Source: Podochytrium sp. JEL0797
Taxonomy: Eukaryota > Chytridiomycota > Chytridiomycetes > Chytridiales > Chytriomycetaceae
Length of the DNA: 64,000 nucleotides
Assembly (NCBI GenBank): GCA_027596195.1
Contig: JADGJG010000024.1
Span: forward strand, 1 to 64,000
Reading direction: 5' to 3'
A program made the position numbers and the translations under genes. Shown here piece by piece: positions 29,080-61,877 of the stretch; the first letter of the stretch is position 1; every line of letters starts with the position of its first letter. Below the pieces are notes generated by a model. It was not told where the DNA came from and made no database searches. It saw only the letters and a program-made list of their open reading frames with translations.

Positions 29080-29165
29080 GAGGGTGCACCACGTCTAGGA
29101 TTTGAGAGGGTGTGTTGAGATGACAAATCCTGTTTTGCTATTTTGGGCACTTTGTGTCGGAGAAT
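23911..29165 (+). mobile_element. Copia-type retroelement, copy 2 (tandem, 5'-truncated)
   Basis: Direct repeat of 18655-23910 (offset 5,255-5,257), joined to copy 1 with no spacer. It begins inside gag at TGGACTTCGCGG and ends at the same 3' point (GTGTCGGAGAAT) as copy 1. Scattered substitutions and several one-base indels separate the copies. Confidence 0.9.
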
Positions 29166-36695: not shown

Positions 36696-39684
36696 ATGGT
36701 GAGAGCTATTCCCCTAGAGCTCCTAGCTAAGACTTGTCCTAGACACGCCACGCACTCTTCTGCCCTCACGCTGTGTTGCCCTTGTGCTGCGCCATGCGCT
36801 GCGCCAATCGAACGAAAGCACCGAGCTTCTCCTTGTGTGCCGAAAGTGGCTGCGTCTCGGCGCCGCGCAACTCTACCGCGCACTGCACTTTGACGCTGCC
36901 TTTGGTGCGCGGCGCCTCGCGCGCCTGACAACCACGCTGCTCGACAAGGACGCACTGCTGCCCTATGCCCTGTTTGTGCGCAGTGTCGCTGTTGTGTCTT
37001 CTAGGGACGCTTCCCTAGTGTCTTCCATAGTGTCTCCTAGCGACGCCTCTCTAGAGGTTTCTCTCGAGTCCCCTAGCAGCCCACTCCAGTCCCCTAGTCA
37101 GACACTCGATGAATCCATCCTCATTGGCGACATCGACACGCTTCTACAGCTCACACCGCATCTCGCCTCATTTGCCTGGACCGCAGACCCCGCCGCCACG
37201 TCCGTGGTGCTCCACTCTCTGGCCGACCACGCAAAGCGCCTCACGCGGCTGTCGCTCAGAGAGTGTCCGCTGGCTTCGGATGCCCTGGCTGTGGCCCTGT
37301 GCCATTCGTGCGTGCGTTTGACCCACGTCGATCTGTCCTTCACCCTGCTGTCGCCCAGAGCCGCCGTTTCCATTATTGCCCTGCTGCCACATTTGGTGAC
37401 GCTGAACATGGAGGGCCTGGAGGCCCACGAGATCGATTTCTGCAATGACTATCTGGACAGTTCCCCCTCCTCCCCGCGGCCCTTGCGTCTCCTGAACCTC
37501 AGAAACTGCGTTGCTCTCAGCGATTCCCACATCCGCTCCATAGTTCAAATCTGTCCGCTCCTCGACGCTATTCTGATTGACGGCTGCTCCTCCCTGTCCA
37601 ACGACGCCGTCGTCGCCATTTCCCAGGCTTGTCCGAATCTGCATTCTCTGGACATGAGTTTCATCCCGGCCCTCTCGGATCTGGCCATGTATTCCATTGC
37701 TCTCTGTCTGTCCGATTCGATTCGATATCTGGCCCTGTCGGGCTGCGCGAAAGTCGGACCCGCCGGCGTCCAGATGCTGATTGACAGGGCCTACGCACTC
37801 AAAAGGACAACCGGTGCCTTGAAGCAGCTCGTTCTGCACGGATGCTTGCTCATTCTCGACAGCTATTTATGTGCCTTCGACGATTCGAGGACCGGCGAGT
37901 TGGAGTGCATGTTGGAGGAGGCCGAAATCATGAAAGCCGTGGGCGCCTCTGCTGCAACTATTTCTCCCCCTCGAACCGTTGCAATTTCCCCACCGCGGCC
38001 CCATGCACTATTCGATTCAGAAATGGACGCGTTCGCTACCCCCTCTGCGGTTCATGCGTCCTCAAGATCCTTCGCAACAAATCCCCCCAAATCCCCCGAA
38101 GACTATAACCTCGACTCGACCGAACTCTGGATGCTGGCGTCCTACAACATGCGTGCCCAAATCAACCCCACGAGTTTCGAACCCACTCTATTTACAAACA
38201 CGGCCGATTCTGTTTCAAGCGGGAGCAGCACTCGCTCAAGCGTGCTTTCCATGGAAACAATTCACGAACCCCCGCCGCCTTCTCCCTCTCCCGCTGCCAA
38301 AGAGCTCAAACGCATGAGTTCGCATTCGAGTTCGAGCACAGTGACCCTTTCAAACAGCGGAACCTCGAAAGGAACGAGGCTCCCAACCCCGGGCGTTTCC
38401 GCACCCACCACCACGTCCAAACTACCTGCGACTTCGAAACTGCGTGAATCCGTGCTCGCCAAAACCCACCGCAGCACCGCTCCCAACTCTGCCCTTGCCC
38501 CAAAATCATCTTTCCTCCCGTCTCCGCGACCCTCTCGAACCTCCACCCCAACCCCTTCCACCTCTTTCAAAGCTCCCTCCAAAATCAACTTCAACGCCTC
38601 CACCAACAAACCAAACTCGATCCGAACCCCACTCGCAAAATCCGGATCCCGCATCTCCGCCATCACCCTCTCGTCCTACAGCCAGCCGCCTCCCTCCAAA
38701 GACCCCGCTTCCTCTTTCTCCACCCGCTCCGCCACACCCACGACCACGACTACTACCGCAAGTTCCGGATACAAACCACGCACGTTCAAGAAATTCAACA
38801 ACGACACGGCCACAGAATACGTGCCCTCAAAACCTCCCCCATCCCGTTCTACCGTAACAAGCACCCCATCTCGCCTCGGAACCCCGCAACCCACCAGCAC
38901 CGCCGCCCCTCGCAGCACCCCGTCTGCCTCGTTCAAGCCAGGCTCCTCGTTAGCCCGACTCGGTGGCGGACCTAGGAAACCACTGTCCTCCTCAACGTCC
39001 TCCCCGGCATTCACACCCTCACGCACCCTCCCCGTCCCCTCTTCCTCCTCCCTCGCCTCCACAACCACCACAACACCAGCCCCAAAACCACGTGGCCTCG
39101 GAAGCGCACTCAAACCCCCACCCAGCTCCACATTCACCCAACCCCAACCCCCCACCCCTCACTCCACCACCTCCGCCCAACTCATTCAAGGAGACCTCGA
39201 CGCCTCCTTCCTCGTCACAAGCCCCACCTCCCTCGACTCCCCTACCACCCTCCAAGAACCCGACACAGACCCCGACTCCGGGTTCGACCGATGGCGACGA
39301 CGAAGCATGAGTCTCGGAAACCTCTCTACAACAGGTCTCCCCGTCTCTGCAGCGGCATCATCAACCCCCACCAACAAGACCCCAGGCCGCGCGACCCCCA
39401 CCGCCACCACAACTCCATCCTCAGGCCTGGACCGATGGCGCCGCACCGTCCACACCACCGCATCACCAGCACCCCCCAGCACCGGGTTGGACAAATGGAG
39501 GAAATCAGTGTCAAGCGAAGACTTGGGTGTATCCGCCGCGAGTCCTACGGGAGGGTTGGATCGGTGGAGGAAGAGTGTTGGAGCGGGTGGGAGTGGGATT
39601 CCTGGGCCTGGTGCGAGTGGTGGGAGTACTGGTGTTGGAGGTGGGAATCTTGGGAGTCGGTTGAGACCGACGCGGTTGCGATGA
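36696..39684 (+). CDS. F-box/LRR (AMN1-like) protein with repeated G-D-W-R tail motifs
   Basis: The main frame, open from about 36727 to 39684, encodes LLLVCRKWLRLGAAQLYRAL (second half of an F-box) and then Cys-rich LRRs (LTHVDLSFTLLSPRA, RLLNLRNCVALSDSHI, LIDGCSSLSNDAV, LHSLDMSFIPALSD, YLALSGCAKVGPAGV) as in AMN1/FBXL proteins. A very long Ser/Thr/Pro-rich tail ends in four GFDRWRR / GLDRWRR / GLDKWRK / GLDRWRK motifs. The first half of the F-box (MVRAIPLELLAK from the ATG at 36696) is in another frame, so a short intron or frameshift around 36725-36785 is unresolved. Expected role: substrate receptor of an SCF ubiquitin ligase. Its 3' end is duplicated at 61449-61877. Confidence 0.75.
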
Positions 39685-39961
39685 AGAAGGAGGAATGATT
39701 GGGCTGTTTTTTGTTAATTGTTTTTTTTTGTCTGTTTTGCATTTTAAGTAGTACCCATGAAGAATAGAGGTGGTTTTATTTTTACTGGGAGCGCGTGTTT
39801 CTGTTTTGAGCCACGGTGCAATCAATATCTAGATTTGGCAAAAAAAGAGGTATGTATATCTTAAATTTTGTTTTGATTTCACTGTGCGTCTTGCTGGAGA
39901 AGCAACTTCGCTGACCTTCAGTTTCGAACCTTGATTTGAAATCGACGAAAAAACCTAGTTT
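39685..39961. other. 3' flank of the F-box gene up to the tandem array
   Basis: The first about 95 bp (to about 39778) match the duplicated tail at 61800-61877. The rest is AT-rich unique sequence reaching the left edge of the 9.5-kb unit. No gene, terminal inverted repeat or target-site duplication was recognised. Confidence 0.6.
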
Positions 39962-40392
39962 AGTACTGTCCCATATTATTGAACGGAGTGCGTCGTTTTC
40001 CCATCTTTTTTTTGTATTTTCAGTATCGCACAATGGGGGTTTGGAGAAGGAAATTATGAGACAATGGATTGTGAAAATAAGTTGGACCCCATCAGATCAA
40101 GACTATCAGAGCTGTTTCTTCTCATCTCTGCGAATCTCCGCCATACACGGGCTGGCAAGTCTGGAAGAGTCGAGACTGGCACAAGAAACCTGTGGCAAAA
40201 TAAGATTGCCTCAACAGCAGGCCTAAACAGCCTCGCTGCTTAGGGTCTATTGTGCCGCCTCTTCTTTGATGGACTTGCCAACGCGTTGATTTGCGAATCT
40301 GTTAACCCTTAAAATGGGGGTTTTCATTTTCGAAGCTTCCCACGACACAGCATATCGTGTGAATTTTAAAAATATTCCTCGTCAAAGCCAAC
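39962..40392 (+). promoter_or_regulatory. Leader region of the Fanzor gene, copy 1
   Basis: 431 bases before the ATG. It contains a T-run ending TTTTCAG at about 40021, which could be a 5'UTR splice acceptor, and a strong hairpin at 40222-40244. A 60-residue open stretch lies at about 40040-40226 but has no recognisable features. Confidence 0.4.
40222..40244 (+). other. Leader hairpin, copy 1
   Basis: CCTAA-A-CAGC, loop CTC, GCTG-C-TTAGG: a nine-pair stem with one A/C mismatch and a three-base loop, about 150 bp before the ATG. It would fold in RNA or single-stranded DNA. It is identical in copy 2. Role unknown; it may be part of a structured noncoding RNA. Confidence 0.6.
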
Positions 40393-43300
40393 ATGTTCCC
40401 ATTCACTGGTGGTGCCAACAAGGACAAGGGCAAGGGAAGAGCAACCGCGACTCTTCAGAATGATTACATGGACGTTGATCGTGAAAACGAGATTGTATGA
40501 CTTGGCGTTTACATTCTTTTGGTGATTGTGAATTGACTTGTTTTTGTTTTGATTCGAAACAGGAAAACGCGAATGCTTCCGCACTGGCTCTTGGGATTCA
40601 TTTTTCTCGAAATCCTGATTCTCAGGAACCTGGGTTCCCGTATGGTTCCAGCTCTGGGTCCGGGTCCGTGTCGGCTTCCGCGGCATCTAATTCCGTCATC
40701 CCACCTCAAAAGAAGCGCAAAGTCGCCACAGTAATCCTTGACCAGTTCACGAAGCCGAACCAGAAAGCAAACGTTATCAACAACGTGAGTTTACACATTC
40801 CCAAGAAACCCCCTGTTTAACTCCGTACTCGTTGACCAGTTCAAGAAGCCAAACCCGAAAGCCAACGCGAGCAACAATGTATGCCAAGCACCTTCCACCC
40901 CCCTATTAAAATTGTACCAGTACATTGTTTCAGAACCAAAGGAATCAACGCGATCGTATTCTTGTACTTTCGACGGCTGTGGGAAAGTGCTCACGTCTGC
41001 GAGTGGGATGAAGAGTCATATGAAGAGCCATCCAGAATTCAACGGCCCGCCTACGGTGAGAAGACTTGATTGCTGTGCTTTATCTTTTGTTGATCACATG
41101 TTTCCAGGTGACTGTCGTGGCAGCTTCAGGCGAGACGATCAAGTTTTGTTGCTCTGCATGTGACCAATGTCTCGCGACCGCAGCCAACCGTTGGACTCAC
41201 TTCCAGAAGATGCATGGTGATGATGGTGTAGAGCCCCTCTTTGTGAGTTGTTTATTTCTTTGTGGTTACAAATGTTCACCCCCCCCCCTTTCAACATTCG
41301 ACACAGACATTCACGGAAGCTGCCAAGAAAGAGACAAAGACTTTTCCTTGTCCCCATTCGACGTGCCCAGAGAAATTCACGTCTGCTAACCAACTCAAGA
41401 AGCACCGCCAAAACCGCCACAAGGAGTTTTTTGGACCAGCCATCAAGCCACCAGCCGTCCCCAAGAAGCCTCTTTTGATCTTGGAAAGCGTCCATAACTG
41501 GATTCACGCTGCTGACAAGGATGAGTTCAAGCCGTCCGTTCGAGATTTCTACCATTTCTACTTCTCAGCGACTGCCCTCACGGATTCTCGCGCTCTTGCC
41601 GCCGAAGGAAAAGCGGCGACACTCAATGTGAGTTATTTCATTGAGCAAGGGAGCCAATGAATACGATCAGTTTCTCATTATTGCCCACTGTTTCGCAGGT
41701 TACTGCCAAATTGAGCCACGAACAATGCGTCATGAGGATGAACGACCGTTATCGCGAAATTGTCAAAAAGCAGCCGTACCAAGCCGAGATTTATGTCATC
41801 CTCGCGCGACTTGTTGATGAATTCGGTGACTCTGTCGAGTTTGTCTTGACGTTGGTCCACGCGCTCTGCGACATCAACGGTTTTCGTGGGCCAAAGGCAC
41901 AACACGGTCTCTTCTGCGACAGTGTCGCTCGTCCTTCGGCGTCGATTGTGGAGGAATCGAAGGTCCCAGTTTTTGATTTCACTCGCGACAAAATCGAAGT
42001 CATCCTCGAAACTTTGCGGGGCTTGGTGGCTGAACGTATGCAGCGGTTTACGAACACTGGCGAAGTAGAGCCCAAGATTGAGTGTTTGGTATTGCTGGGG
42101 ATGGAGCACATTCAAGAATGGTGAGGACTTGGCTTTTTTTTTGAGAAATTTTTTTTGATTTCGATTTCTCACACCTGCTTTGTTTTCAAGTCCAGGAAAC
42201 CTTGTTGAAAACATCCAACGCGACTCCATCCAAAATATCTGCAAGTCTCGTCCTCCTCTGGCCCTTGGCTCTGGCTCTGCAGCAAGCTGCTCCACTGTGC
42301 CCCAGTGCATCCTTGGTTCCGGGTCAGATTCCCAAAACCCAGTGTCCTCTGGTTCTGCCGCAAGTTGCTCTACTGCACCCCAGTGCAGCCTTGGTCCCAC
42401 CTCTGCCGCCGCAGCTGACGCGTCTGGGCCCCGCCAAAAGATTTGCCAAATCAACGGTGATAAATTCATGGGTTCTTGCGTTGTCGGATTTTTCGACGCC
42501 ACCAAACCAGACGAGGTCTTCACGGTCGTCACTTGGTCTGATGCTTCCATCCCCACTGCCTCCTGCATCAAGTTGGTCAACGACGTGGCCCAATGTCTCT
42601 GTGGCATGCAACCCCCTCCAGAAGATGTGACACTCGCAATCGGCGAAATCAAGCAGATGTGTGGCTTGGATTTTTCCGCCCCATTCCTCGGTCACCTCAC
42701 CCCCCAGTTACGCGAAATCAACGACTGCCTCTTTTCCTACAACTTGTACACGCTGCTGTGCGCTGGTTGCAAATTGGAAGGTGTTGCTGCCATTGGGAGA
42801 GACGCGCAGGACTTCTGGGGTGTTGGAGGGCAATTCTCCGCGAAGGAGGACCAAGGGTGGTTTGGGAGGATGCAAGAGTTCCAAGTGCATGTGTCATCGT
42901 ACCTCCACAACGCCACGCTGAGCTACACCCCGGACTTGAAGGACTCGCTCGCTGGGAAGCAGGGTTTCACACCGTCGATGAAGCGAGTCGTCGCTCGAAT
43001 TCTTCTCGATGAAATTGCCTCGAACCCTGTGCTGTTCAAGTTGTTCTCCGAACACGACCGTCCAAGCGCGATGCGTCGCGTGTTTTCCCACATGAAGGAG
43101 GACATTGTGGGGAATTCTGTGGGCAGTGCGAAATGGGCGCGGTGCCTCGGGCTCTTCTCGGACTTTGATGATCTTCAAATGCACCGCGCCTCGGACAAGA
43201 TGGTCGTTGGTTGCATGTGGGGTGGCATGGGGTGGAACGAGCCCGTCAAATTCGACAAGAAGGAGATGCAAGATATGATCAAGAGTCGAGCTGCTGATGG

Positions 43301-46300
43301 GATTCGTCTTGGGTTTGGATTCGAGAAAGTTTCGGACAAGAAGCCGGAGAGGAGACACCCCAAGGTGGAGGAGGAGAATGGTTCGGATGAGATTGGGTTG
43401 TTTGTTGGTGGTTCTCTGGTCCCGTACGACGAGTTTTGCAAGATCCACGCGGCAGCTCGAATGCTGGTCGAGTCTGGTGTTGTCCTACATCAAGGGCTCA
43501 TCAAGGGACTCCAGCGTTTGGACAAGACCCTACAGTCGTTCCCGAACCTCAAGTTCCTGCATTGCTTGACGAGGACACTGGCTCGGATTCCCAACTGTTT
43601 TGCTGTTCCTTGTGCCATAGTTTTTCAGGGCCGGACCCAGTCCGGCGTGAGCACCTTGAGCACCATGCTGGATTCTCTCGAGGCGAAAACCAAGTCCATC
43701 CCCCAAGAAGCGAAGCTCGAGGCTGTCAAGTTGAAGCTCGGTGTTTCCAACTTGGAGGATTGGCAAGCAGTCTTGGTTATCCACGAGGACCCCGCAACAC
43801 GCGTTCGTCAACTCATCAAAAGCTACTTTGTCGTTCCACGCTCGAGAAATCAGGGCTCCATGACCACGACCCAATTTGATGCAGCATCTGTCGAGCGTAT
43901 GGTGGGGGCAGGGGTGTTGTTCGAAGGAGGAGGGGTGATGATTTCTTATTTGGTCGCAGGTGTGAAGTACGTTGGAGTTGTGAAATTGGGCGAGAAGCAG
44001 ATGGGGAAGCTTCGAGAGGCTGCGGACAAGTATCGGACAACTTTGGGACCTATCAGTGCGTTTGATTTGAAGTCGAAGGATCCACCAAAGCACTCCAAGG
44101 GAGCGGAGGTGTCGGTTGCGATGGATGGTGGTTGGGAAGATGTGGGAGCTGGTGGGTGGAAGACGGTCGCGCCCGACGCGGGTGCCAAGGTTCGCACAAA
44201 CTGGCTCGAGTCCGAAGTATCCTTCGAATCCAGCTCCCCTGTCATTCACATCGGCAAGTCGGTGCACACGTCGTTTCACGACCTCACTGACTTGATCGGC
44301 AAGCTGGTCCACTCCGATGTCATCAAATCTCCCTACTTTCAACCCAACTGCTCTACTACCACTTTGGCCCTCAACTGCTTTCTGTCCTTGTACAGTCCAT
44401 ACAAACGCATGGATACCAAGACAGTCGATGTCGCACCAGTTCGTCGCACGAAAGCGGAGATGGAGGAGTTGTGTGTTGCCGTGAGATCGTTCAAGTCATT
44501 TCAGCGATCGGGCGCACTCCCGCAGTCACTCGCGAGTGTCAAGAATCCATCAGTGACCTTCATGGTGGATCTCAACCACGCGTCCAAGGCAGATGCTGCT
44601 CTCACGAGGGTCCACGGAACGGAGGTTGCTGCTTACATTCGTGTTCCAGACACCATTAGCGACTTTTTCACGCTCAAAACAAACCGCGACACTCCTGACG
44701 ACAACTGCAAGCAGACCACCTACCGCAGAGCCACTCTTGTTGCCGCGTCACCCAAAACGCAGCCGGAAACGTCTCCGAAAACGCCACCCGAAACCAACAA
44801 GGTCCGCTTCCACCCCAAGGACCGTCACTCTTTGTCGATCGGAAAGATTGTCTTGGGAGCGGCGCAACTCATGTTCAAAGCGCTCAAGGTGATCCAGCCT
44901 CCACACCTACGACTGCTACCTGTGAAGAAGAATGCGAAGGAGAAGGAGAAGGAAAAGGCGAAGGAGAATTCGAACAGTTTCTCTCTTCTTGGTTTGTGTA
45001 ATTTTATTCGGATTCTTTTGTTGCAACACTGTCTGATGATGAATATCTGGCTCTTTTTTGCAGCCGATGACGACGTTATGCCCACAGATCAGGCCCATTC
45101 CACCGACAGGTCAAACGAGAACCGTTGCTCTCTTCTTGGTTTGTGTGATTTTTATTCGGATTCTTTTGCTGCAACACTTTCTGATGTCACGAATTCCTTG
45201 TTCTTTTTGCAGTCGATGACAACGCCATGTCCACGGATCTGGCTGATTCCACTGACAAGCCAACCAAGAAGCTTGGAACTCCGATTCCTAAGGCGCCACA
45301 TGGTTTGTCTTGTTGATTCTTTTTGATTTGGTTTCGTTGACTCAATGCTAATTCTGTTTTTTCCCAGCGCCACCTTCCGTGCCTCTCGCTGAGCCCGCTG
45401 ATACCAGCGCTGAACGTTCAACGACGCTCGAGGACATGCATACGCATTACGTGATGCCCGGGAATCACGAGGCGAATACGGTGTTGGGGATCTCTGGGGG
45501 TCTCATTTTCACGGGTGCGTGCGTTTTTGACATGTCATTTTTTTATTTACAAACAAACGGTCTGATGCAAACTCCCTTTCCACAGTGTCAGCCAACAACT
45601 TTACGTTGCTGAATTCTGAGGCCCATGTCGACAAGAAAAAGAACAAGAAAAAGAAAGCGAACATGATGGACGTTGATGTGAACGAGGCGGAGGCTCATGT
45701 TGAGGCAATTGATGCTGTCGATGCCGCTTTGGCAAATGCGCCCGTGATGCCTGTGAACGCGGGTTCCGAGTCGAATCCGGTGTGCACGAAGATTGTCAAA
45801 CTGGAGGAAACGTATGGAGCGAGTCTCGCCATCGCCGGGTCCGTGACGGACCTCCGCGAGTTCAACGACCGGATCGTTCGGAAGGTTCTGTTGATGGGAG
45901 ATGCCGCGAACGGAGAAACGATTTCCGTTAACTGCAGCACCGGTGTCGTGGAGGTCGAGCAAGTCGGTGCAGCAGCTCCAGTGGAACACGAATTCGTGCG
46001 GGTCTTAAAGGACTTTGTCGGGAAGAGGGGGGTTCTTGCGAGTTTGAAACCATTGGACAAGTTGGCGTTCGAAACTCTCGCGAGTGCCTCCGTTGACGCG
46101 AATGAGTTACTTGGGATTCTGAGGATATCTGTCAGAGACTCTCGTCTGCTTGCCTTTGTCCAGTTTGTGTACAGCTTGGAGGACATTGACCATGCCGACA
46201 GCAGCACGCTCAGCCTCGTCTCCATGATTGCCCTCTTGACCAGCACCAGCAACACTCTGATCAAGTCCATCTCCGTGTCCAACAACTCTCCATCTGTTCA

Positions 46301-49300
46301 CGAAGCCACGATCCGCGATCTGTTGGCCTCTGGAGTTCCATTCCTTGTCGTGCCGTCCCACAACGGAGTTTCTGTCGTCTTCAAGTACCTATGTGGTGAC
46401 ATGAAACCCGTCGAGTTGGCGTGCCGTTTGATTCGGGAGGCTGTTTCCCAGATGCAAATCATTTGCGGGTTGACGGTCGCGGAAGTTGCTGCGGTGGAGA
46501 GTGTTTTACGCGCGTCAAGCGGGCCAGCATTGGATCCCTTGAGTTTGAGAGGCTCGCAGTTGAAGGAGTTTGCGAAAGCGCTGGATTTGAAGCTGTTGGG
46601 GGGGGAATCTGCAGAGAGGATGACGACAAGGGTGTTCCGATTCTTTGACAAGGAGATGTTGAGGCTGCAGGGCGAAGGCATCAATGTCGAAACTCATCGC
46701 GAGGCTGCCGTGAAGGAGGCTGTTGATTTGTTGGTCTCCAAGACGCATGAGCCGTTGTTCCAAGCCACTTTGGACGTTACGGTGCATGTCACGGAACCCG
46801 GCGAGTTTGATCCTCTCCTCTCCTTCCACGTCAAGTACTCCAACATGTCTGAAGTCATGGCCAAAAGCACTTCCATGCTGCTCACCCGCGAGCCTTTGGA
46901 TGAGATTGCAAAACTCAACTTTGTCTCCAAACCACCCCAGTATGAGTGCCGCTACCCCACTTGCTGCAAAGACTCTGCTGGGAAGGAAAAGAAACCGCCA
47001 AGCTTTACCACCTTGTCAAACTGCAAACAACATATCATGAGACATCGGGAAAGGGAGGAACCTGGCTCTGTGCGCCCGAATCCGGAGTATGTGAAATTGG
47101 ACCCCCCAGCACCGAATACGCCGCCTGCTGTTGGAGGAGATGCGATGGACGTGGATGGAGTCGAAGTCGGGGGTGGTGCTAGTGCGGGTGGTCCAGTTGC
47201 CAAGGATGCCAAGCCTCTTCAAACGACTCTCAACGTCCTTGTGTCCAAGTCTGGGTCTGACGCCATGTTTGGAATCTTGAACACTGCCGCCTCGTTTGAC
47301 GTCAAGCCTTCCGACATTCCCGACAAGGTGGCCCAGTTTGCGTCTCGCACAAACCACCATTGGAATCTCTCTGTGCTCAACCGTAGCAACAACAACAAGT
47401 CTGAAGCACCCGCCATTTCCGCTGAAGAAGTCAAGCTCAACAGGCCGTACAGGATGTCTGCTTTGGAGGCGGACAAGATTTTCGACTTTGCCAGATTTGG
47501 GGAGTGGACATTGAACCATTTGTTGTCGGCAAAGCACGGGTTTACGAATCTTTTGGCCGACGGGGAGAACAAGAGAGAGACGGATTTGTTCTCCGCCATT
47601 CATCGCAACAACATCAAGTCGGACTTTGGGAACTTCAAGGACAAGCTGCTGAAGGCGAAAGGTATTTTGATTCTGTATTCGTTGCGTTTTATTGGACTCT
47701 CTTCTTACACTTAATCCACACGCAGACAACAAACCCGTGATCGAAAAACTCCGCAGTTTCCATCGCTCGAACTACATCAACGGTCGACGGATTTTCGGAC
47801 TTCCACCGCAACAGTTCCACCTCACGCCTGTCAACAACATTTCGGTCGAGTTCAAGGGCCACGATGGATTCCACGAGCTCAAGAGCACGAAAGCGCGCGA
47901 CGTCTGCTACACTGACTCCTGGGCTGGTGGAAAGAAACTGCGGTCCAAAATCGAGGCGCAAAAAGTCCGCGTCACGCTTGCCGTTCCTTTGTCCAAACCC
48001 CGAATCACGATTGAGATGAATGTCGATGGACATCAGCAGCCAAAGAACCTCGAGACAGTGGTGGACCAGTATCTGAATCTGGTGCGAGGAGAGAATCAGG
48101 ACTTTGATTTCGCCTCGGCGCAAGTCATGTTCTGCCCAGAGACCAACCAACTGCGGTTTCACGTTCCCATGAAGCCCAACGACTCGAAACGCGCTCTGCC
48201 GAATCCAGTGGAAGTGAAGCCTCTCGCTAAGCACACGTGCAGTGGCAACTGCCTGGACTGCATCAAGATTCGGACGGACTTCAAGGAGCGGACGGTGAAG
48301 GAAGGCTCGTTCGAACCGTTCCGATTCGAGAAGCATGGTGAGTTTGTGCATCCTGGTCTCAAGGGGTTCAATGGGATGGGGATGTTGCGGGTGAAGCTGA
48401 GCGGGAACCAGTGGAACGCCTCGGACAAGAGTGCAGTGGGTGCGGACATTGGGCACCACACGCCATACCTGATGTGCGACACGGCGCTCAACTTTTTTGA
48501 ATTCGGACGTGAGGGTGCGCAGCAGTTGCCGTACTTGTTGCAGTGTCGCTCGGCGTGCCAGTCGTTGCTGGACAAGGGTATCAACACGACGGCGGCTGTG
48601 GTGGAGGCGACTCGGAAGGCTGCTGAAGCGCGGCTGAAGCGGGACAACGGCAAGGCTTTACCTGCGGAGGATCGCGCGAAGCTCGAGACGGCAGTGGTGA
48701 AGGCGGCGGAGGACTTGGCCAAGGAGCGAAAGACGGCCAAGGAGCGCATCGACAAGGACGCCGAGGACGAGCAGCGCAAGAACCAGGTCGCCTACGACGA
48801 GCTGCGCAAGGCCAAGTTCGCTCAGCACTATCGCGCGCGCGTGGGTCACAACGGGCGCGAGCCGCCCACGCACGTGCACATCGGACCCTTCGTGCCGCGC
48901 TCGTTGTCGGCCCGCATTGCCTTGTACGACAAGAAGATTGACGCGTTTGCTGCCAGGCTGAAGGACGTGGTTGTGCGCTTCACAAGTGTGTTTGACGTGG
49001 TGGCGTTTCCGGACTACAAAGTATTTTTATTTTCTGTTTTTTCTGATTAGTGGATCCGTGTAATCTACCCTGATACTTTCCATACTCACTTTCTACTACA
49101 CACAGACAAACACTGCGTTCAAGCGACTCGGCTTCGCGAGTATTCGTGACGCCGTCAAGCGCGAGAAGGACAAGCGCGGAGGGCTGTTTGTTCTGATCAA
49201 CGAGGCCTTCACGACGTGTCTGTGTCCCCTCTGCGGCAGCGACTCGAATCCGGGCCGAAGCCGGTATTTCATATGCACCGATCCCGCCTGTGGCTTCCGC

Positions 49301-49423
49301 TGCGACCGTGACTCCAAGTCCGCCCTGCTCATCCTCCTGATGTTGCTCCTCGTTCCAAAGACGAAAAGTTTAGCCAGTTCCCCAGTTGACGTCTTCGAAA
49401 GGCAGGGTTCCAATCGATTTTAA
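40393..49423 (+). CDS. Giant C2H2 zinc-finger protein with C-terminal Fanzor (TnpB-like) nuclease, copy 1
   Basis: Fourteen exons by eye (40393-40494, 40563-40784, 40840-40878, 40921-41055, 41108-41242, 41307-41627, 41699-42120, 42191-44991, 45064-45138, 45213-45302, 45368-45514, 45586-47661, 47726-49020, 49106-49423) join in one frame of 2,726 codons. Features by residue: NLS PPQKKRKV (81-88); C2H2 fingers C136/C141/H154/H158, C181/C184/H197/H202 and C226/C231/H244/H249; about 1,700 unassigned residues; a C2H2-like finger C1951/C1956/H1979/H1983; then a TnpB/Fanzor module. RuvC-I is AVGADIG (D2429), followed by a long charged helical region, FDVVAFPDYK at the usual RuvC-II place, NEAFTT (E2653), zinc ribbon CPLCG...C (2660-2682) and DRDSKSA (D2687). 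Fanzors are RNA-guided DNA endonucleases found in eukaryotic mobile elements. Activity and guide RNA are not shown here. Confidence 0.8.
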
Positions 49424-49494
49424 TCGTGAGTTGAACTTTTTTTTCGTTTCTCGAAGCCAAAAAATAATGTTCTTCCCCCCCATCTTGCACAGTC
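49424..49494 (+). other. Post-stop tail of unit copy 1, intron-like
   Basis: Only 71 bp separate the stop from the next unit. It opens with a donor-like GTGAGT (49427) and closes with CACAG two bases before the unit boundary, like a spliceosomal intron in the 3'UTR. In TnpB/Fanzor elements the guide RNA usually comes from this end; no obvious structured RNA is visible in so short a stretch. Confidence 0.4.
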
Positions 49495-49754
49495 AGTACT
49501 GTCCCATATTATTGAACGGAGTGCGTCGTTTTCCCATCTTTTTTTTGTATTTTCAGTATCGCACAATGGGGGTTTGGAGAAGGAAATTATGAGACAATGG
49601 ATTGTGAAAATAAGTTGGACCCCATCAGATCAAGACCATCAGAGCTGTTTCTTCTCATCTCTGCGAATCTCCGCCATACACGGGCTGGCAAGTCTGGAAG
49701 AGTCGAGACCGGCACAAGAAACCTGTGGCAAAATAAGATTGCCTCAACAGCAGG

Positions 49755-49777
49755 CCTAAACAGCCTCGCTGCTTAGG
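49755..49777 (+). other. Leader hairpin, copy 2
   Basis: Identical to the hairpin at 40222-40244, at the same distance from the ATG. Confidence 0.6.
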
Positions 49778-49925
49778 GTCTATTGTGCCGCCTCTTCTTT
49801 GATGGACTTGCCAACGCGTTGATTTGCGAATCTGTTAACCCTTAAAATGGGGGTTTTCATTTTCGAAGCTTCCCACGACACAGCATATCGTGTGAATTTT
49901 AAAAATATTCCTCGTCAAAGCCAAC

Positions 49926-52900
49926 ATGTTCCCATTCACTGGTGGTGCCAACAAGGACAAGGGCAAGGGAAGAGCAACCGCGACTCTTCAGAATGATTAC
50001 ATGGACGTTGATCGTGAAAACGAGATTGTATGACTTGGCGTTTACATTCTTTTGGTGATTGTGAATTGACTTGTTTTTGTTTTGATTCGAAACAGGAAAA
50101 CGCGAATGCTTCCGCACTGGCTCTTGGGATTCATTTTTCTCGAAATCCTGATTCTCAGGAACCTGGGTTCCCGTATGGTTCCAGCTCTGGGTCCGGGTCC
50201 GTGTCGGCTTCCGCGGCATCTAATTCCGTCATCCCACCTCAAAAGAAGCGCAAAGTCGCCACAGTAATCCTTGACCAGTTCACGAAGCCGAACCAGAAAG
50301 CAAACGTTATCAACAACGTGAGTTTACACATTCCCAAGACCCCCCCCCCTCCATGCCCCTGTTTAACTCCGTACTCGTTGACCAGTTCAAGAAGCCAAAC
50401 CCGAAAGCCAACGCGAGCAACAATGTATGCCAAGCACCTTCCACCCCCCACTTAAAAATGTACCAGTACATTGTTTCAGAACCAAAGGAATCAACGCGAT
50501 CGTATTCTTGTACTTTCGACGGCTGTGGGAAAGTGCTCACGTCTGCGAGTGGGATGAAGAGTCATATGAAGAGCCATCCAGAATTCAACGGCCCGCCTAC
50601 GGTGAGAAGACTTGATTGCTGTGCTTTATCTTTTGTTGATCACATGTTTCCAGGTGACTGTCGTGGCAGCTTCAGGCGAGACGATCAAGTTTTGTTGCTC
50701 TGCATGTGACCAATGTCTCGCGACCGCAGCCAACCGTTGGACTCACTTCCAGAAGATGCATGGTGATGATGGTGTAGAGCCCCTCTTTGTGAGTTGTTTA
50801 TTTCTTTGTGGTTACAAATGTTCACCCCCCCCCCTTTCAACATTCGACACAGACATTCACGGAAGCTGCCAAGAAAGAGACAAAGACTTTTCCTTGTCCC
50901 CATTCGACGTGCCCAGAGAAATTCACGTCTGCTAACCAACTCAAGAAGCACCGCCAAAACCGCCACAAGGAGTTTTTTGGACCAGCCATCAAGCCACCAG
51001 CCGTCCCCAAGAAGCCTCTTTTGATCTTGGAAAGCGTCCATAACTGGATTCACGCTGCTGACAAGGATGAGTTCAAGCCGTCCGTTCGAGATTTCTACCA
51101 TTTCTACTTCTCAGCGACTGCCCTCACGGATTCTCGCGCTCTTGCCGCCGAAGGAAAAGCGGCGACACTCAATGTGAGTTATTTCATTGAGCAAGGGAGC
51201 CAATGAATACGATCAGTTTCTCATTATTGCCCACTGTTTCGCAGGTTACTGCCAAATTGAGCCACGAACAATGCGTCATGAGGATGAACGACCGTTATCG
51301 CGAAATTGTCAAAAAGCAGCCGTACCAAGCCGAGATTTATGTCATCCTCGCGCGACTTGTTGATGAATTCGGTGACTCTGTCGAGTTTGTCTTGACGTTG
51401 GTCCACGCGCTCTGCGACATCAACGGTTTTCGTGGGCCAAAGGCACAACACGGTCTCTTCTGCGACAGTGTCGCTCGTCCTTCGGCGTCGATTGTGGAGG
51501 AATCGAAGGTCCCAGTTTTTGATTTCACTCGCGACAAAATCGAAGTCATCCTCGAAACTTTGCGGGGCTTGGTGGCTGAACGTATGCAGCGGTTTACGAA
51601 CACTGGCGAAGTAGAGCCCAAGATTGAGTGTTTGGTATTGCTGGGGATGGAGCACATTCAAGAATGGTGAGGACTTGGCTTTTTTTTTGAGAAATTTTTT
51701 TTGATTTCGATTTCTCACACCTGCTTTGTTTTCAAGTCCAGGAAACCTTGTTGAAAACATCCAACGCGACTCCATCCAAAATATCTGCAAGTCTCGTCCT
51801 CCTCTGGCCCTTGGCTCTGGCTCTGCAGCAAGCTGCTCCACTGTGCCCCAGTGCATCCTTGGTTCCGGGTCAGATTCCCAAAACCCAGTGTCCTCTGGTT
51901 CTGCCGCAAGTTGCTCTACTGCACCCCAGTGCAGCCTTGGTCCCACCTCTGCCGCCGCAGCTGACGCGTCTGGGCCCCGCCAAAAGATTTGCCAAATCAA
52001 CGGTGATAAATTCATGGGTTCTTGCGTTGTCGGATTTTTCGACGCCACCAAACCAGACGAGGTCTTCACGGTCGTCACTTGGTCTGATGCTTCCATCCCC
52101 ACTGCCTCCTGCATCAAGTTGGTCAACGACGTGGCCCAATGTCTCTGTGGCATGCAACCCCCTCCAGAAGATGTGACACTCGCAATCGGCGAAATCAAGC
52201 AGATGTGTGGCTTGGATTTTTCCGCCCCATTCCTCGGTCACCTCACCCCCCAGTTACGCGAAATCAACGACTGCCTCTTTTCCTACAACTTGTACACGCT
52301 GCTGTGCGCTGGTTGCAAATTGGAAGGTGTTGCTGCCATTGGGAGAGACGCGCAGGACTTCTGGGGTGTTGGAGGGCAATTCTCCGCGAAGGAGGACCAA
52401 GGGTGGTTTGGGAGGATGCAAGAGTTCCAAGTGCATGTGTCATCGTACCTCCACAACGCCACGCTGAGCTACACCCCGGACTTGAAGGACTCGCTCGCTG
52501 GGAAGCAGGGTTTCACACCGTCGATGAAGCGAGTCGTCGCTCGAATTCTTCTCGATGAAATTGCCTCGAACCCTGTGCTGTTCAAGTTGTTCTCCGAACA
52601 CGACCGTCCAAGCGCGATGCGTCGCGTGTTTTCCCACATGAAGGAGGACATTGTGGGGAATTCTGTGGGCAGTGCGAAATGGGCGCGGTGCCTCGGGCTC
52701 TTCTCGGACTTTGATGATCTTCAAATGCACCGCGCCTCGGACAAGATGGTCGTTGGTTGCATGTGGGGTGGCATGGGGTGGAACGAGCCCGTCAAATTCG
52801 ACAAGAAGGAGATGCAAGATATGATCAAGAGTCGAGCTGCTGATGGGATTCGTCTTGGGTTTGGATTCGAGAAAGTTTCGGACAAGAAGCCGGAGAGGAG

Positions 52901-55900
52901 ACACCCCAAGGTGGAGGAGGAGAATGGTTCGGATGAGATTGGGTTGTTTGTTGGTGGTTCTCTGGTCCCGTACGACGAGTTTTGCAAGATCCACGCGGCA
53001 GCTCGAATGCTGGTCGAGTCTGGTGTTGTCCTACATCAAGGGCTCATCAAGGGACTCCAGCGTTTGGACAAGACCCTACAGTCGTTCCCGAACCTCAAGT
53101 TCCTGCATTGCTTGACGAGGACACTGGCTCGGATTCCCAACTGTTTTGCTGTTCCTTGTGCCATAGTTTTTCAGGGCCGGACCCAGTCCGGCGTGAGCAC
53201 CTTGAGCACCATGCTGGATTCTCTCGAGGCGAAAACCAAGTCCATCCCCCAAGAAGCGAAGCTCGAGGCTGTCAAGTTGAAGCTCGGTGTTTCCAACTTG
53301 GAGGATTGGCAAGCAGTCTTGGTTATCCACGAGGACCCCGCAACACGCGTTCGTCAACTCATCAAAAGCTACTTTGTCGTTCCACGCTCGAGAAATCAGG
53401 GCTCCATGACCACGACCCAATTTGATGCAGCATCTGTCGAGCGTATGGTGGGGGCAGGGGTGTTGTTCGAAGGAGGAGGGGTGATGATTTCTTATTTGGT
53501 CGCAGGTGTGAAGTACGTTGGAGTTGTGAAATTGGGCGAGAAGCAGATGGGGAAGCTTCGAGAGGCTGCGGACAAGTATCGGACAACTTTGGGACCTATC
53601 AGTGCGTTTGATTTGAAGTCGAAGGATCCACCAAAGCACTCCAAGGGAGCGGAGGTGTCGGTTGCGATGGATGGTGGTTGGGAAGATGTGGGAGCTGGTG
53701 GGTGGAAGACGGTCGCGCCCGACGCGGGTGCCAAGGTTCGCACAAACTGGCTCGAGTCCGAAGTATCCTTCGAATCCAGCTCCCCTGTCATTCACATCGG
53801 CAAGTCGGTGCACACGTCGTTTCACGACCTCACTGACTTGATCGGCAAGCTGGTCCACTCCGATGTCATCAAATCTCCCTACTTTCAACCCAACTGCTCT
53901 ACTACCACTTTGGCCCTCAACTGCTTTCTGTCCTTGTACAGTCCATACAAACGCATGGATACCAAGACAGTCGATGTCGCACCAGTTCGTCGCACGAAAG
54001 CGGAGATGGAGGAGTTGTGTGTTGCCGTGAGATCGTTCAAGTCATTTCAGCGATCGGGCGCACTCCCGCAGTCACTCGCGAGTGTCAAGAATCCATCAGT
54101 GACCTTCATGGTGGATCTCAACCACGCGTCCAAGGCAGATGCTGCTCTCACGAGGGTCCACGGAACGGAGGTTGCTGCTTACATTCGTGTTCCAGACACC
54201 ATTAGCGACTTTTTCACGCTCAAAACAAACCGCGACACTCCTGACGACAACTGCAAGCAGACCACCTACCGCAGAGCCACTCTTGTTGCCGCGTCACCCA
54301 AAACGCAGCCGGAAACGTCTCCGAAAACGCCACCCGAAACCAACAAGGTCCGCTTCCACCCCAAGGACCGTCACTCTTTGTCGATCGGAAAGATTGTCTT
54401 GGGAGCGGCGCAACTCATGTTCAAAGCGCTCAAGGTGATCCAGCCTCCACACCTACGACTGCTACCTGTGAAGAAGAATGCGAAGGAGAAGGAGAAGGAA
54501 AAGGCGAAGGAGAATTCGAACAGTTTCTCTCTTCTTGGTTTGTGTAATTTTATTCGGATTCTTTTGTTGCAACACTGTCTGATGATGAATATCTGGCTCT
54601 TTTTTGCAGCCGATGACGACGTTATGCCCACAGATCAGGCCCATTCCACCGACAGGTCAAACGAGAACCGTTGCTCTCTTCTTGGTTTGTGTGATTTTTA
54701 TTCGGATTCTTTTGCTGCAACACTTTCTGATGTCACGAATTCCTTGTTCTTTTTGCAGTCGATGACAACGCCATGTCCACGGATCTGGCTGATTCCACTG
54801 ACAAGCCAACCAAGAAGCTTGGAACTCCGATTCCTAAGGCGCCACATGGTTTGTCTTGTTGATTCTTTTTGATTTGGTTTCGTTGACTCAATGCTAATTC
54901 TGTTTTTTCCCAGCGCCACCTTCCGTGCCTCTCGCTGAGCCCGCTGATACCAGCGCTGAACGTTCAACGACGCTCGAGGACATGCATACGCATTACGTGA
55001 TGCCCGGGAATCACGAGGCGAATACGGTGTTGGGGATCTCTGGGGGTCTCATTTTCACGGGTGCGTGCGTTTTTGACATGTCATTTTTTTATTTACAAAC
55101 AAACGGTCTGATGCAAACTCCCTTTCCACAGTGTCAGCCAACAACTTTACGTTGCTGAATTCTGAGGCCCATGTCGACAAGAAAAAGAACAAGAAAAAGA
55201 AAGCGAACATGATGGACGTTGATGTGAACGAGGCGGAGGCTCATGTTGAGGCAATTGATGCTGTCGATGCCGCTTTGGCAAATGCGCCCGTGATGCCTGT
55301 GAACGCGGGTTCCGAGTCGAATCCGGTGTGCACGAAGATTGTCAAACTGGAGGAAACGTATGGAGCGAGTCTCGCCATCGCCGGGTCCGTGACGGACCTC
55401 CGCGAGTTCAACGACCGGATCGTTCGGAAGGTTCTGTTGATGGGAGATGCCGCGAACGGAGAAACGATTTCCGTTAACTGCAGCACCGGTGTCGTGGAGG
55501 TCGAGCAAGTCGGTGCAGCAGCTCCAGTGGAACACGAATTCGTGCGGGTCTTAAAGGACTTTGTCGGGAAGAGGGGGGTTCTTGCGAGTTTGAAACCATT
55601 GGACAAGTTGGCGTTCGAAACTCTCGCGAGTGCCTCCGTTGACGCGAATGAGTTACTTGGGATTCTGAGGATATCTGTCAGAGACTCTCGTCTGCTTGCC
55701 TTTGTCCAGTTTGTGTACAGCTTGGAGGACATTGACCATGCCGACAGCAGCACGCTCAGCCTCGTCTCCATGATTGCCCTCTTGACCAGCACCAGCAACA
55801 CTCTGATCAAGTCCATCTCCGTGTCCAACAACTCTCCATCTGTTCACGAAGCCACGATCCGCGATCTGTTGGCCTCTGGAGTTCCATTCCTTGTCGTGCC

Positions 55901-58900
55901 GTCCCACAACGGAGTTTCTGTCGTCTTCAAGTACCTATGTGGTGACATGAAACCCGTCGAGTTGGCGTGCCGTTTGATTCGGGAGGCTGTTTCCCAGATG
56001 CAAATCATTTGCGGGTTGACGGTCGCGGAAGTTGCTGCGGTGGAGAGTGTTTTACGCGCGTCAAGCGGGCCAGCATTGGATCCCTTGAGTTTGAGAGGCT
56101 CGCAGTTGAAGGAGTTTGCGAAAGCGCTGGATTTGAAGCTGTTGGGGGGGGAATCTGCAGAGAGGATGACGACAAGGGTGTTCCGATTCTTTGACAAGGA
56201 GATGTTGAGGCTGCAGGGCGAAGGCATCAATGTCGAAACTCATCGCGAGGCTGCCGTGAAGGAGGCTGTTGATTTGTTGGTCTCCAAGACGCATGAGCCG
56301 TTGTTCCAAGCCACTTTGGACGTTACGGTGCATGTCACGGAACCCGGCGAGTTTGATCCTCTCCTCTCCTTCCACGTCAAGTACTCCAACATGTCTGAAG
56401 TCATGGCCAAAAGCACTTCCATGCTGCTCACCCGCGAGCCTTTGGATGAGATTGCAAAACTCAACTTTGTCTCCAAACCACCCCAGTATGAGTGCCGCTA
56501 CCCCACTTGCTGCAAAGACTCTGCTGGGAAGGAAAAGAAACCGCCAAGCTTTACCACCTTGTCAAACTGCAAACAACATATCATGAGACATCGGGAAAGG
56601 GAGGAACCTGGCTCTGTGCGCCCGAATCCGGAGTATGTGAAATTGGACCCCCCAGCACCGAATACGCCGCCTGCTGTTGGAGGAGATGCGATGGACGTGG
56701 ATGGAGTCGAAGTCGGGGGTGGTGCTAGTGCGGGTGGTCCAGTTGCCAAGGATGCCAAGCCTCTTCAAACGACTCTCAACGTCCTTGTGTCCAAGTCTGG
56801 GTCTGACGCCATGTTTGGAATCTTGAACACTGCCGCCTCGTTTGACGTCAAGCCTTCCGACATTCCCGACAAGGTGGCCCAGTTTGCGTCTCGCACAAAC
56901 CACCATTGGAATCTCTCTGTGCTCAACCGTAGCAACAACAACAAGTCTGAAGCACCCGCCATTTCCGCTGAAGAAGTCAAGCTCAACAGGCCGTACAGGA
57001 TGTCTGCTTTGGAGGCGGACAAGATTTTCGACTTTGCCAGATTTGGGGAGTGGACATTGAACCATTTGTTGTCGGCAAAGCACGGGTTTACGAATCTTTT
57101 GGCCGACGGGGAGAACAAGAGAGAGACGGATTTGTTCTCCGCCATTCATCGCAACAACATCAAGTCGGACTTTGGGAACTTCAAGGACAAGCTGCTGAAG
57201 GCGAAAGGTATTTTGATTCTGTATTCGTTGCGTTTTATTGGACTCTCTTCTTACACTTAATCCACACGCAGACAACAAACCCGTGATCGAAAAACTCCGC
57301 AGTTTCCATCGCTCGAACTACATCAACGGTCGACGGATTTTCGGACTTCCACCGCAACAGTTCCACCTCACGCCTGTCAACAACATTTCGGTCGAGTTCA
57401 AGGGCCACGATGGATTCCACGAGCTCAAGAGCACGAAAGCGCGCGACGTCTGCTACACTGACTCCTGGGCTGGTGGAAAGAAACTGCGGTCCAAAATCGA
57501 GGCGCAAAAAGTCCGCGTCACGCTTGCCGTTCCTTTGTCCAAACCCCGAATCACGATTGAGATGAATGTCGATGGACATCAGCAGCCAAAGAACCTCGAG
57601 ACAGTGGTGGACCAGTATCTGAATCTGGTGCGAGGAGAGAATCAGGACTTTGATTTCGCCTCGGCGCAAGTCATGTTCTGCCCAGAGACCAACCAACTGC
57701 GGTTTCACGTTCCCATGAAGCCCAACGACTCGAAACGCGCTCTGCCGAATCCAGTGGAAGTGAAGCCTCTCGCCAAGCACACGTGCAGTGGCAACTGCCC
57801 GGACTGCATCAAGATTCGGACGGACTTCAAGGAGCGGACGGTGAAGGAAGGCTCGTTCGAACCGTTCCGATTCGAGAAGCATGGTGAGTTTGTGCATCCT
57901 GGTCTCAAGGGGTTCAATGGGATGGGGATGTTGCGGGTGAAGCTGAGCGGGAACCAGTGGAACGCCTCGGACAAGAGTGCAGTGGGTGCGGACATTGGGC
58001 ACCACACGCCATACCTGATGTGCGACACGGCGCTCAACTTTTTTGAATTCGGACGTGAGGGTGCGCAGCAGTTGCCGTACTTGTTGCAGTGTCGCTCGGC
58101 GTGCCAGTCGTTGCTGGACAAGGGTATCAACACGACGGCGGCTGTGGTGGAGGCGACTCGGAAGGCTGCTGAAGCGCGGCTGAAGCGGGACAACGGCAAG
58201 GCTTTACCTGCGGAGGATCGCGCGAAGCTCGAGACGGCAGTGGTGAAGGCGGCGGAGGACTTGGCCAAGGAGCGAAAGACGGCCAAGGAGCGCATCGACA
58301 AGGACGCCGAGGACGAGCAGCGCAAGAACCAGGTCGCCTACGACGAGCTGCGCAAGGCCAAGTTCGCTCAGCACTATCGCGCGCGTGTGGGTCACAACGG
58401 GCGCGAGCCGCCCACGCACGTGCACATCGGACCCTTCGTGCCGCGCTCGTTGTCGGCCCGCATTGCCTTGTACGACAAGAAGATTGACGCGTTTGCTGCC
58501 AGGCTGAAGGACGTGGTTGTGCGCTTCACAAGTGTGTTTGACGTGGTGGCGTTTCCGGACTACAAAGTATTTTTATTTTCTGTTTTTTCTGATTAGTGGA
58601 TCCGTGTAATCTACCCTGATACTTTCCATACTCACTTTCTACTACACACAGACAAACACTGCGTTCAAGCGACTCGGCTTCGCGAGTATTCGTGACGCCG
58701 TCAAGCGCGAGAAGGACAAGCGCGGAGGGCTGTTTGCTCTGATCAACGAGGCCTTCACGACGTGTCTGTGTCCCCTCTGCGGCAGCGACTCGAATCCGGG
58801 CCGAAGCCGGTATTTCATATGCACCGATCCCGCCTGTGGCTTCCGCTGCGACCGTGACTCCAAGTCCGCCCTGCTCATCCTCCTGATGTTGCTCCTCGTT

Positions 58901-58969
58901 CCAAAGACGAAAAGTTTAGCCAGTTCCCCAGTTGACGTCTTCGAAAGGCAGGGTTCCAATCGATTTTAA
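49926..58969 (+). CDS. Giant C2H2 zinc-finger protein with C-terminal Fanzor nuclease, copy 2
   Basis: Same 14-exon structure as copy 1 (coordinates +9,533 before intron 2, +9,546 after it) and the same uninterrupted coding length. Coding differences that I could see: Leu in copy 1 is Pro here in the CSGNC(L/P)DC motif (about 57800), which lies upstream of RuvC-I, and Val is Ala just before the NEAFTT catalytic glutamate motif (58736). Other changes are silent or intronic. No stop or frameshift was seen, so both copies appear able to make full-length protein. The C-terminal RuvC residues and zinc ribbon are identical. Copy 2's right end abuts unique sequence, so it is the copy whose flank could supply a guide if the guide RNA extends past the unit end. 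Confidence 0.8.
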
Positions 58970-59040
58970 TCGTGAGTTGAACTTTTTTTTCGTTTCTCGA
59001 AGCCAAAAAATAATGTTCTTCCCCCCCATCTTGCACAGTC

Positions 59041-59165
59041 ACGTACCTATTTTCCCTTTTTTGAATATGAAATATTTTCGAATTCTTTCGCAGAGAGTGG
59101 TTGCAGTAAAGTTTATTCCTCTTTCTTGATTAACTCCCTCCCACGATATCGCGCATCCTACAATT
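59041..59165. other. Right flank of the array
   Basis: 125 bp of unique AT-rich sequence between the array and the stop of the ADP-ribosylglycohydrolase gene. No repeat of the array's left flank is seen, so no target-site duplication was found. Confidence 0.6.
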
Positions 59166-60431: not shown

Positions 60432-60511
60432 TTGATTGATAAAAATTTCAAAAAAAAATTTTTTTTCTCATGATTTGGGAGCAAAAAAGAAGAGTGAGCA
60501 GCGCAAAGCAC

Positions 60512-61448: not shown

Positions 61449-61877
61449 AACGAAGAGTCTCGGAAACCTCTCGACAACAGGTCTCCCAATCTCTGCAGCG
61501 GGATCATCAACCCCCACCATGACCCCTGACCGCGCGACCACTCCCACCAACAAGACCCCAGGCCGCGCGACCCCCACCGCCACCACAACTCCATCCTCAG
61601 GTCTCGACCGATGGCGCCGCACTGTTCACATCACTGCGTCACCAGCACCCCCCCACTGACGGAGGGTTAATAGATCGGTGGAGGAAAAGTGTTGGGGCGG
61701 GTTGGAGTGAGATTCCTGGGCCTGCTGCGAGTGGTGGGAGTACTGGTGTTGGAGGTGGGAATCTTGGGAGTTGGTTGAGGCCGACGCGGTTGCGGTGATG
61801 GGGGGGGGGTGGGAATTGTTTTTTTGTTTGTTTTGCATTTTACATAAGTAGTACCCATGAAGAATAGAGGTGGTTTG
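61449..61877 (+). pseudogene. Duplicated 3' end of the F-box/LRR gene
   Basis: Diverged copy of 39299-39778, including the end of the coding region (SLGNLSTTGLP, NKTPGRATPTATTTPSSG, LDRWRRTVH) and about 95 bp of 3' untranslated sequence (GTACCCATGAAGAATAGAGG). It carries an insertion of a duplicated TPT/ATTPTNK stretch, a deletion over the third tail motif, and a stop after SPAPPH. It has no promoter or F-box and is joined to the broken 6-phosphogluconolactonase gene. Confidence 0.85.

Follow-up and report, generated by a model that had tools for sequence, protein, structure and literature searches.

TnpB and Cas12f are prokaryotic proteins of several hundred residues that are not known to carry zinc fingers or introns. 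Within the TnpB/Fanzor superfamily, published Fanzor1 proteins are mostly 600-700 residues long according to an excerpt of PMC11423790, and in a passage of PMC10711439 they reach about 800 residues. SPu-1 of Spizellomyces punctatus is described in part of PMC3627910 as one open frame of 633 residues with 33-bp terminal inverted repeats (TIRs). Section 7 of that paper reports Fanzor1 in Tc/mariner elements (PUl-4, PGv-1), Fanzor-only units included. Here we describe a gene from Podochytrium sp. JEL0797 whose model is about four times as large as a usual Fanzor. It lies in a stretch of 64,000 nt of contig JADGJG010000024.1, referred to as the window, to which all coordinates refer; the giant gene and its features are on the plus strand. 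Copy 1 of this gene (40393..49423) is modelled with 14 exons and 2,725 residues, and the unusual size ascribed to it by an earlier reading of the sequence (the first-pass annotation) holds against the published range. The C-terminus it encodes has a TNB zinc ribbon accompanied by the D/E/D positions expected for RuvC nucleases. In a diverged paralogue this domain is fused to a C2H2 finger and linker, and the gene itself is followed by a tandem second copy. These observations are best explained as a whole by a giant member of the TnpB/Fanzor superfamily in a mobile unit, which would be made as one polypeptide, act as a nuclease and be moved in trans. We assign this reading a probability of about 0.58.

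A TnpB/Fanzor nuclease domain at the C-terminus

The C-terminal exon 14 (49106..49423, residues 2621-2725) contains a TNB domain (PF07282) at 49133-49330, which was detected by Pfam with an E-value of 2.3e-9 and 37.7 bits against a cut-off of 26.3. The C-terminus also matches a PHROGs transposase (E 7.9e-9) and Cas12f of PADLOC (E 9.2e-8). The NCBIfam model guided_TnpB was matched with an E-value of 1.7e-6, but with 27.6 bits this is far under its cut-off of 100. In a profile search of PDB with the C-termini of the window gene and of two giant relatives from the same genome (C277 and C335), the best match was TnpB-like L79 (5.5e-8), followed by a transposase (4.8e-5); the remaining 11 of 13 matches at E ≤ 1 were weaker and comprised mainly Cas12 and IS605-type chains, one being clearly unrelated. 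The TnpB/Fanzor character proposed for the C-terminus is borne out by these four collections, with NCBIfam below cut-off, and by the PDB search; the match sought in residues 2190-2725 is located in exon 14.

The residues expected of such a nuclease are present. An excerpt of PMC3627910 gives the TnpB/Fanzor motif as D-X(125,275)-[TS][TS]-X-X-C4-X(5,50)-RD. In the giant gene 226 residues separate D2429 from T2656, and five lie between C2682 and the RD. None of 2,000 shuffles of residues 2189-2725 contained even a slightly laxer version of this pattern. The putative RuvC aspartate D2429 (48445..48447), the glutamate E2653 ahead of the zinc ribbon (49202..49204), the four cysteines of the ribbon (residues 2660-2682, 49223..49291) and R2688-D2689 of the RD motif (49307..49312) are all invariant in the alignment of the three giants. 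The Fanzor1 RuvC triad of D, E (between strand 5 and TNB) and D is thereby recognised by sequence alignment only. For SpuFz1, a passage of PMC10432273 names E541, D383, N385 and D606 as metal ligands.

The preceding exon 13 (47726..49020, residues 2189-2620) includes the RuvC part and a portion presumed to be WED-like; in Fanzor1 proteins, WED and REC domains precede RuvC. At the position that we take to be RuvC-II of TnpB, the window gene reads PDYK and not Glu. This is no objection, because the Fanzor glutamate lies before the TNB domain, where E2653 sits; structures described in an excerpt of PMC11423790 place it on the loop that connects strand 5 to the TNB domain. Judged by sequence, membership of the giant gene in the TnpB/Fanzor superfamily is secure and its placement with Fanzor1 is likely.

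One protein or two genes

Rebuilding the gene model confirmed that the 14 exons, spliced with matching phases, give a single frame of 2,725 codons with one terminal stop, as the first-pass annotation had proposed. All 13 introns have GT-AG borders and 12 of them a CAG acceptor; the acceptor of intron 7 is AAG (42190), and intron 3 measures only 42 bases. Coding potential was assessed by a codon-usage score and a simple gene predictor, for both of which five further long open frames from the same genome served as training set. In the claimed frame exon 8 (42191..44991, residues 459-1392, without known domain), exon 12 (45586..47661, residues 1497-2188, with relatives in C277 and C318) and exon 13 scored 106, 127 and 59 bits, respectively. 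The other two plus frames of these exons scored negatively and are interrupted by 10-28 stops apiece; a single minus frame per exon was likewise positive (60, 80 and 42 bits), but is broken by 18, 6 and 10 stops, respectively. For the short exons 1, 3, 4 and 9 the score was about zero and inseparable from noise. The probability that one given frame of this length contains no stop by chance is about 7e-18 (exon 8), 2e-13 (exon 12) and 1e-8 (exon 13), uncorrected for the frames and places tried. At three intron penalties the predictor always joined the region through to 49423. Its start varied with the penalty (40460, 41210 or 41738), it recovered only exon 3 among exons 1-5, and that at one penalty, it left intron 8 unspliced under both higher penalties, and it chose different donors near 45144 and 47685.

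Relatives were sought in the whole assembly (24.4 Mb, 995 contigs). It contains twelve TNB matches with E ≤ 0.001; 11 exceed the cut-off, and two are the window's own. The relative C277 (TNB 40.8 bits) is colinear with residues 1865-2701 (E 1e-69; 29% and 34% identity by tblastn); its contig starts at the point matching residue ~1865, so the gene is cut there. C277 also shares the intron between exons 12 and 13 (intron 12) at the identical site and in the same phase, and when spliced there it reads 908 codons with one stop. Given this colinearity and the shared intron, one old protein comprises at least the final ~860 residues. Compared with C277, pN/pS is 0.465/0.713 in the upstream part and 0.448/0.721 in the nuclease part, with pS near saturation; pN below pS points to purifying selection on both parts. 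C335 (TNB 40.5 bits) has only the RuvC/TNB part in common with the window gene, at 25% identity, and outside it the homology probability is at most 6%. Its upstream chain of open exons yields a model of about 2,170 residues with an uncertain 5' end. For C660 and C318, the predictor found no giant gene on the matching strand. By the gene model, the full-length fusion, residues before 1865 included, is probable. The fusion of zinc fingers and nuclease claimed in the first-pass annotation stands with independent support from C277 for residues 1865-2725, and for the earlier residues as a gene model only.

The alternative that survives best is a pair of adjacent genes, namely a zinc-finger gene made of exons 1-8, ending near 45316-45326, and a Fanzor-like gene of ~1,200 residues beginning at or near exons 11-12. 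The frame of exon 8 does stay open across introns 8 and 9 until a stop at 45326, and the single-gene score of 316.6 is approached by a split in which the first gene ends at 45316 and the second starts at 45227 (312.9), by a non-overlapping split ending at 45316 and starting at 45454 (311.2) and by a third two-gene cut (310.4). However, the best of these splits requires the genes to overlap, and the non-overlapping one leaves 137 bases for terminator and promoter. Exons 9-11 are joined in phase by GT-AG sites, and an exon-plus-intron tandem duplication of 150 bases within the gene (44972-45121 and 45119-45270, 82% identical) has kept donor and acceptor intact in both copies. In favour of a split, the paralogue demonstrates fusion for residues 1865-2725 only, and even a protein of that kind would be larger than known Fanzors. 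On balance we regard two genes as unlikely, though the most serious competitor of the single polypeptide.

Least probable is a decaying Fanzor relic, with a recognisable domain in an inactive giant protein: degraded relatives do occur in the genome (C136 with internal stops, fragments C318 and C660) and PDYK replaces the presumed RuvC-II glutamate of TnpB, but copy 1 is open over 2,725 codons, copy 2 departs from it in the exons by four substitutions that create no stop, the comparison with C277 gives a pN well below pS, and the catalytic Fanzor1 glutamate is described on the loop before TNB, at the position of E2653.

Besides the giants, the genome holds ordinary-type Fanzor-like frames (L017, 6321-8060, C106, with 579 residues; L018, 1253-1906, C227). 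A second large Fanzor-like family comprises L027 (C459), L022/L048 (C396) and L047 (C322), whose C-termini resemble WDRD-NAARNI; the models of 1,742 (C459), 811 (C396) and 1,213 (C322) residues come from the crude predictor and may run into neighbouring genes.

The N-terminal part

Exon 2 encodes the string PPQKKRKV (40701..40724, residues 81-88), which resembles a nuclear localisation signal (NLS). It is followed by C2H2 finger 1 (40963..41031, residues 136-158) and finger 3 (41349..41420, residues 226-249), which score 24.2 and 19.8 bits with Pfam zf-C2H2, below its cut-off of 25.2. Between them, a C2H2-like pattern 2 (41147..41215, residues 180-202) matches another zinc-finger model weakly (15.4 bits, cut-off 27). 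The NLS-like string and the three patterns starting at residues 136, 180 and 226 had been noticed before and were recovered here, the patterns with zinc-finger scores short of the cut-offs. Additions to that earlier reading are the tandem second copy, the diverged relatives in the genome and a fourth C2H2 pattern (46947..47045, residues 1951-1983), which carries an insertion in the window gene and has the standard form in C277. The three N-terminal fingers are ~2,200 residues away from the RuvC aspartate. Exons 8 and 12 match no family beyond chance in Pfam, NCBIfam, PADLOC and PHROGs (best E 0.12) and no PDB sequence at E ≤ 1; a single diverged fragment of exon 8, C660, occurs at another place in the genome. 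Nothing but the C2H2 patterns and the NLS-like string can be interpreted in the ~2,200 residues of the N-terminal part. A short duplication, 82% identical, is present around exon 3 (40731-40786 and 40825-40880).

Tandem arrangement and mobility

The giant gene lies in a repeat unit of 9.5 kb that occurs twice directly in tandem (39962..49499 and 49495..59046). In a blastn self-comparison the two copies are 99.7% identical over 9,552 aligned columns; 11 substitutions distinguish them, along with an insertion of 13 bases in intron 2 and a single base at the right end. Copy 2 of the gene spans 49926..58969 (coordinates shifted from copy 1) and is identical in exons 8-12; the four exon differences comprise two synonymous and two non-synonymous changes. 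GTAC marks the two outer ends (39963 and 59043) as well as the junction (49496), and a TA lies inside it. This suits a duplicated target site. The right flank of the tandem is single-copy, so it provides no empty site for comparison.

No match to a DDE transposase was obtained in the eight exon pieces scanned (exons 4-8 and 12-14), the other frames of the unit being unscanned. A left-end relic of a pogo-like (DDE_1) family, 70 bases long (39877..39946, plus strand), ends 15 bases left of copy 1. The transposase of this family matches DDE_1 with an E-value of 3.2e-25, and the 5' part of the transposon has matches at 10 places (window 39877-39946, C582, C48, C281, C665, C107, C322, C335, C443 and C917). 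Four of the six fetched pogo ends start with TA|CTGTG, as do those in C335 and C322. The Fanzor unit starts with TA|CTGTCCC, and the adjoining relic has CA in place of TA; by eye, the two ends of the unit have only ACTGT in common. In C335 a pogo-like transposase gene precedes the giant Fanzor-like model by ~1 kb. The unit is perhaps moved in trans by a transposase of the pogo/mariner type.

A separate question is whether the tandem arose when the assembler joined two haplotypes head to tail, in which case the giant gene would be present once per genome. The window contains another tandem pair (18654-23910 and 23910-29165, 99.1%), and five of the six fetched pogo ends are near contig ends; therefore the assembly breaks at repeats. 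The junction nevertheless falls exactly on GTAC, like both outer ends, as a target-site repeat would give, and we consider an artefact rather doubtful. The gene model is unaffected by this question. The other tandem pair is unrelated to the giant unit; four of its frames were scanned, and one matches a retroviral SH3-like model weakly (E 0.0028, below cut-off).

Two further features adjoin the units. To the left is a leucine-rich-repeat-like frame whose 3' end (39309-39776) recurs on the right at 61455-61876 with 73% identity, where it looks like a relic. An ADP-ribosylglycohydrolase gene (59166-60467, minus strand, 4.5e-52) adjoins copy 2.

A candidate guide-RNA block at the 3' end

According to a passage of PMC10432273, S. 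punctatus has ghost loci that contain a guide-RNA region but lack the Fanzor gene, and the guide RNA of GtFz1 overlaps 17 C-terminal codons. The Podochytrium genome contains two truncated derivatives (C762 and C214) that retain the 3' end of the unit and little else of the gene. As they are 92% alike where aligned, they amount to nearly a single observation. Both have lost the stop codon yet keep a block of 90 bases (49357..49446) that spans this codon in the window and is a candidate guide-RNA scaffold. The block is identical to the window at 83/90 and 84/90 positions (an 11-base insertion in C214 uncounted), and its flanks are less alike (27/47 and 26/47 upstream, 28/48 and 20/48 downstream). 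The window block and its two counterparts fold with a similar closing stem. A search of the window and the tail with Rfam gave no match.

Conservation of the block might instead reflect a splice or termination signal, namely a 3' intron with the donor GTGAGT at 49427 and the acceptor CACAG at 49493. Both window copies and, by eye, C762 and C214 have the donor and an AG acceptor. On the other hand, conservation over 90 bases exceeds a splice site, and both arms of the similar predicted closing stem lie inside the block, albeit without covariation. A 3' intron is a serious contender for this segment, at somewhat under even odds.

Proposed function and its weighing

In the proposed scheme the 14-exon model would be translated into one polypeptide that enters the nucleus by its NLS-like string. 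The C2H2 fingers might tether this protein to the ends of its own element, to other DNA, to RNA or to protein. The C-terminal RuvC domain would cut DNA where a guide RNA made from the unit's 3' end directs it, as in ordinary Fanzors. Having no visible transposase, the unit could be mobilised in trans by a pogo/mariner-like transposase that the genome supplies; the DNA cut may help to retain or regain copies of the element. By analogy with Fanzor/TnpB we infer that the giant protein might combine RNA-guided cleavage with protein-guided DNA recognition. A stricter version, in which a ~2,700-residue nuclease uses two addresses, docking via the NLS, four C2H2 fingers and the huge N-terminal part and cutting via the RNA-guided RuvC domain, strikes us as improbable. 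In that version the fingers would bind the element's own DNA, a guide RNA encoded by the same element would find the target, and truncated ghost units would supply further guides.

Several results weigh against the giant mobile nuclease as a whole. In the nuclease region, exon 13 searched by itself gave no hit to a family of Pfam or NCBIfam at E ≤ 1, its single-sequence structure model is poor (pLDDT 39.5), and an alignment with two ordinary Fanzors of the same genome spans just 50-52 columns around TNB. The two-gene models score nearly as well as the single gene, and the C335 model contains no C2H2 pattern other than the zinc ribbon, its 5' end being uncertain. At E ≤ 0.001, protein databases gave no relative of the full-length protein (best 7,997 candidates scored), none in a profile search with the three giant C-termini (8,000 candidates scored) and none for residues 2590-2725 against long proteins only (103 candidates); these searches require shared 5-residue words, so their negatives are weak. 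Viral contigs yielded no relative when scanned with exon 8, with exon 12 or with the alignment of the C-termini. Concerning mobility, no TIR was detected in copy 1 between 39900-40400 and 49300-49520 (7-base seed), and inverted repeats linking the unit to the pogo family were not found. Regarding the guide RNA, the fold energies of the block are no better than those of shuffles (z -0.4 to -1.0; window block -0.6), the whole tail gives a z of 0.13, and no covarying pairs occur in the three-row alignment, in which one row is shortened. Finally, the block stops ~50 bases short of the right end of the unit, unlike the arrangement of SpuFz1.

If the single-protein model is true, Fanzors are not solely compact nucleases, and one lineage would have grown about fourfold and gained DNA- or partner-binding modules of its own. 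Such a protein would show how an RNA-guided cutter can be tethered in nature, and the reason for the persistence of Fanzors in transposons that lack a transposase could be put to the test. No report of a Fanzor with C2H2 fingers was found among the open-access papers searched, most subscription journals being outside that search.

Comparison with known systems

Like TnpB and Cas12f, the window gene has a TNB domain and RuvC positions. With Fanzor1 of Spizellomyces punctatus (SpuFz1, SPu-1) it shares the D...[TS][TS]xxC4...RD motif and the glutamate before the zinc ribbon, as well as a mobile-element setting with ghost-like derivatives that retain the 3' end. It differs from SPu-1 in its modelled 2,725 residues, its 14 exons and its C2H2 fingers, and in that a TIR was not found; its N-terminal part, in contrast to SpuFz1/SPu-1, has no detected relatives among Fanzors. 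The unit resembles the Tc/mariner elements with Fanzor1, as described in part of PMC3627910, in having TA at its ends, and Fanzor-only units are known there. Unlike PUl-4 and PGv-1, whose TIRs are reported in that part to be identical to those of confirmed mariners, the window unit showed no such TIRs. Among the giants of its own genome, C335 has the RuvC/TNB part in common with it (25%), with upstream homology not detected, whereas C277 is colinear with it from residue 1865 onward and is cut by the start of its contig. The locus holds a new, giant form of Fanzor with a very large predicted N-terminal extension, tandem-duplicated in a mobile unit.

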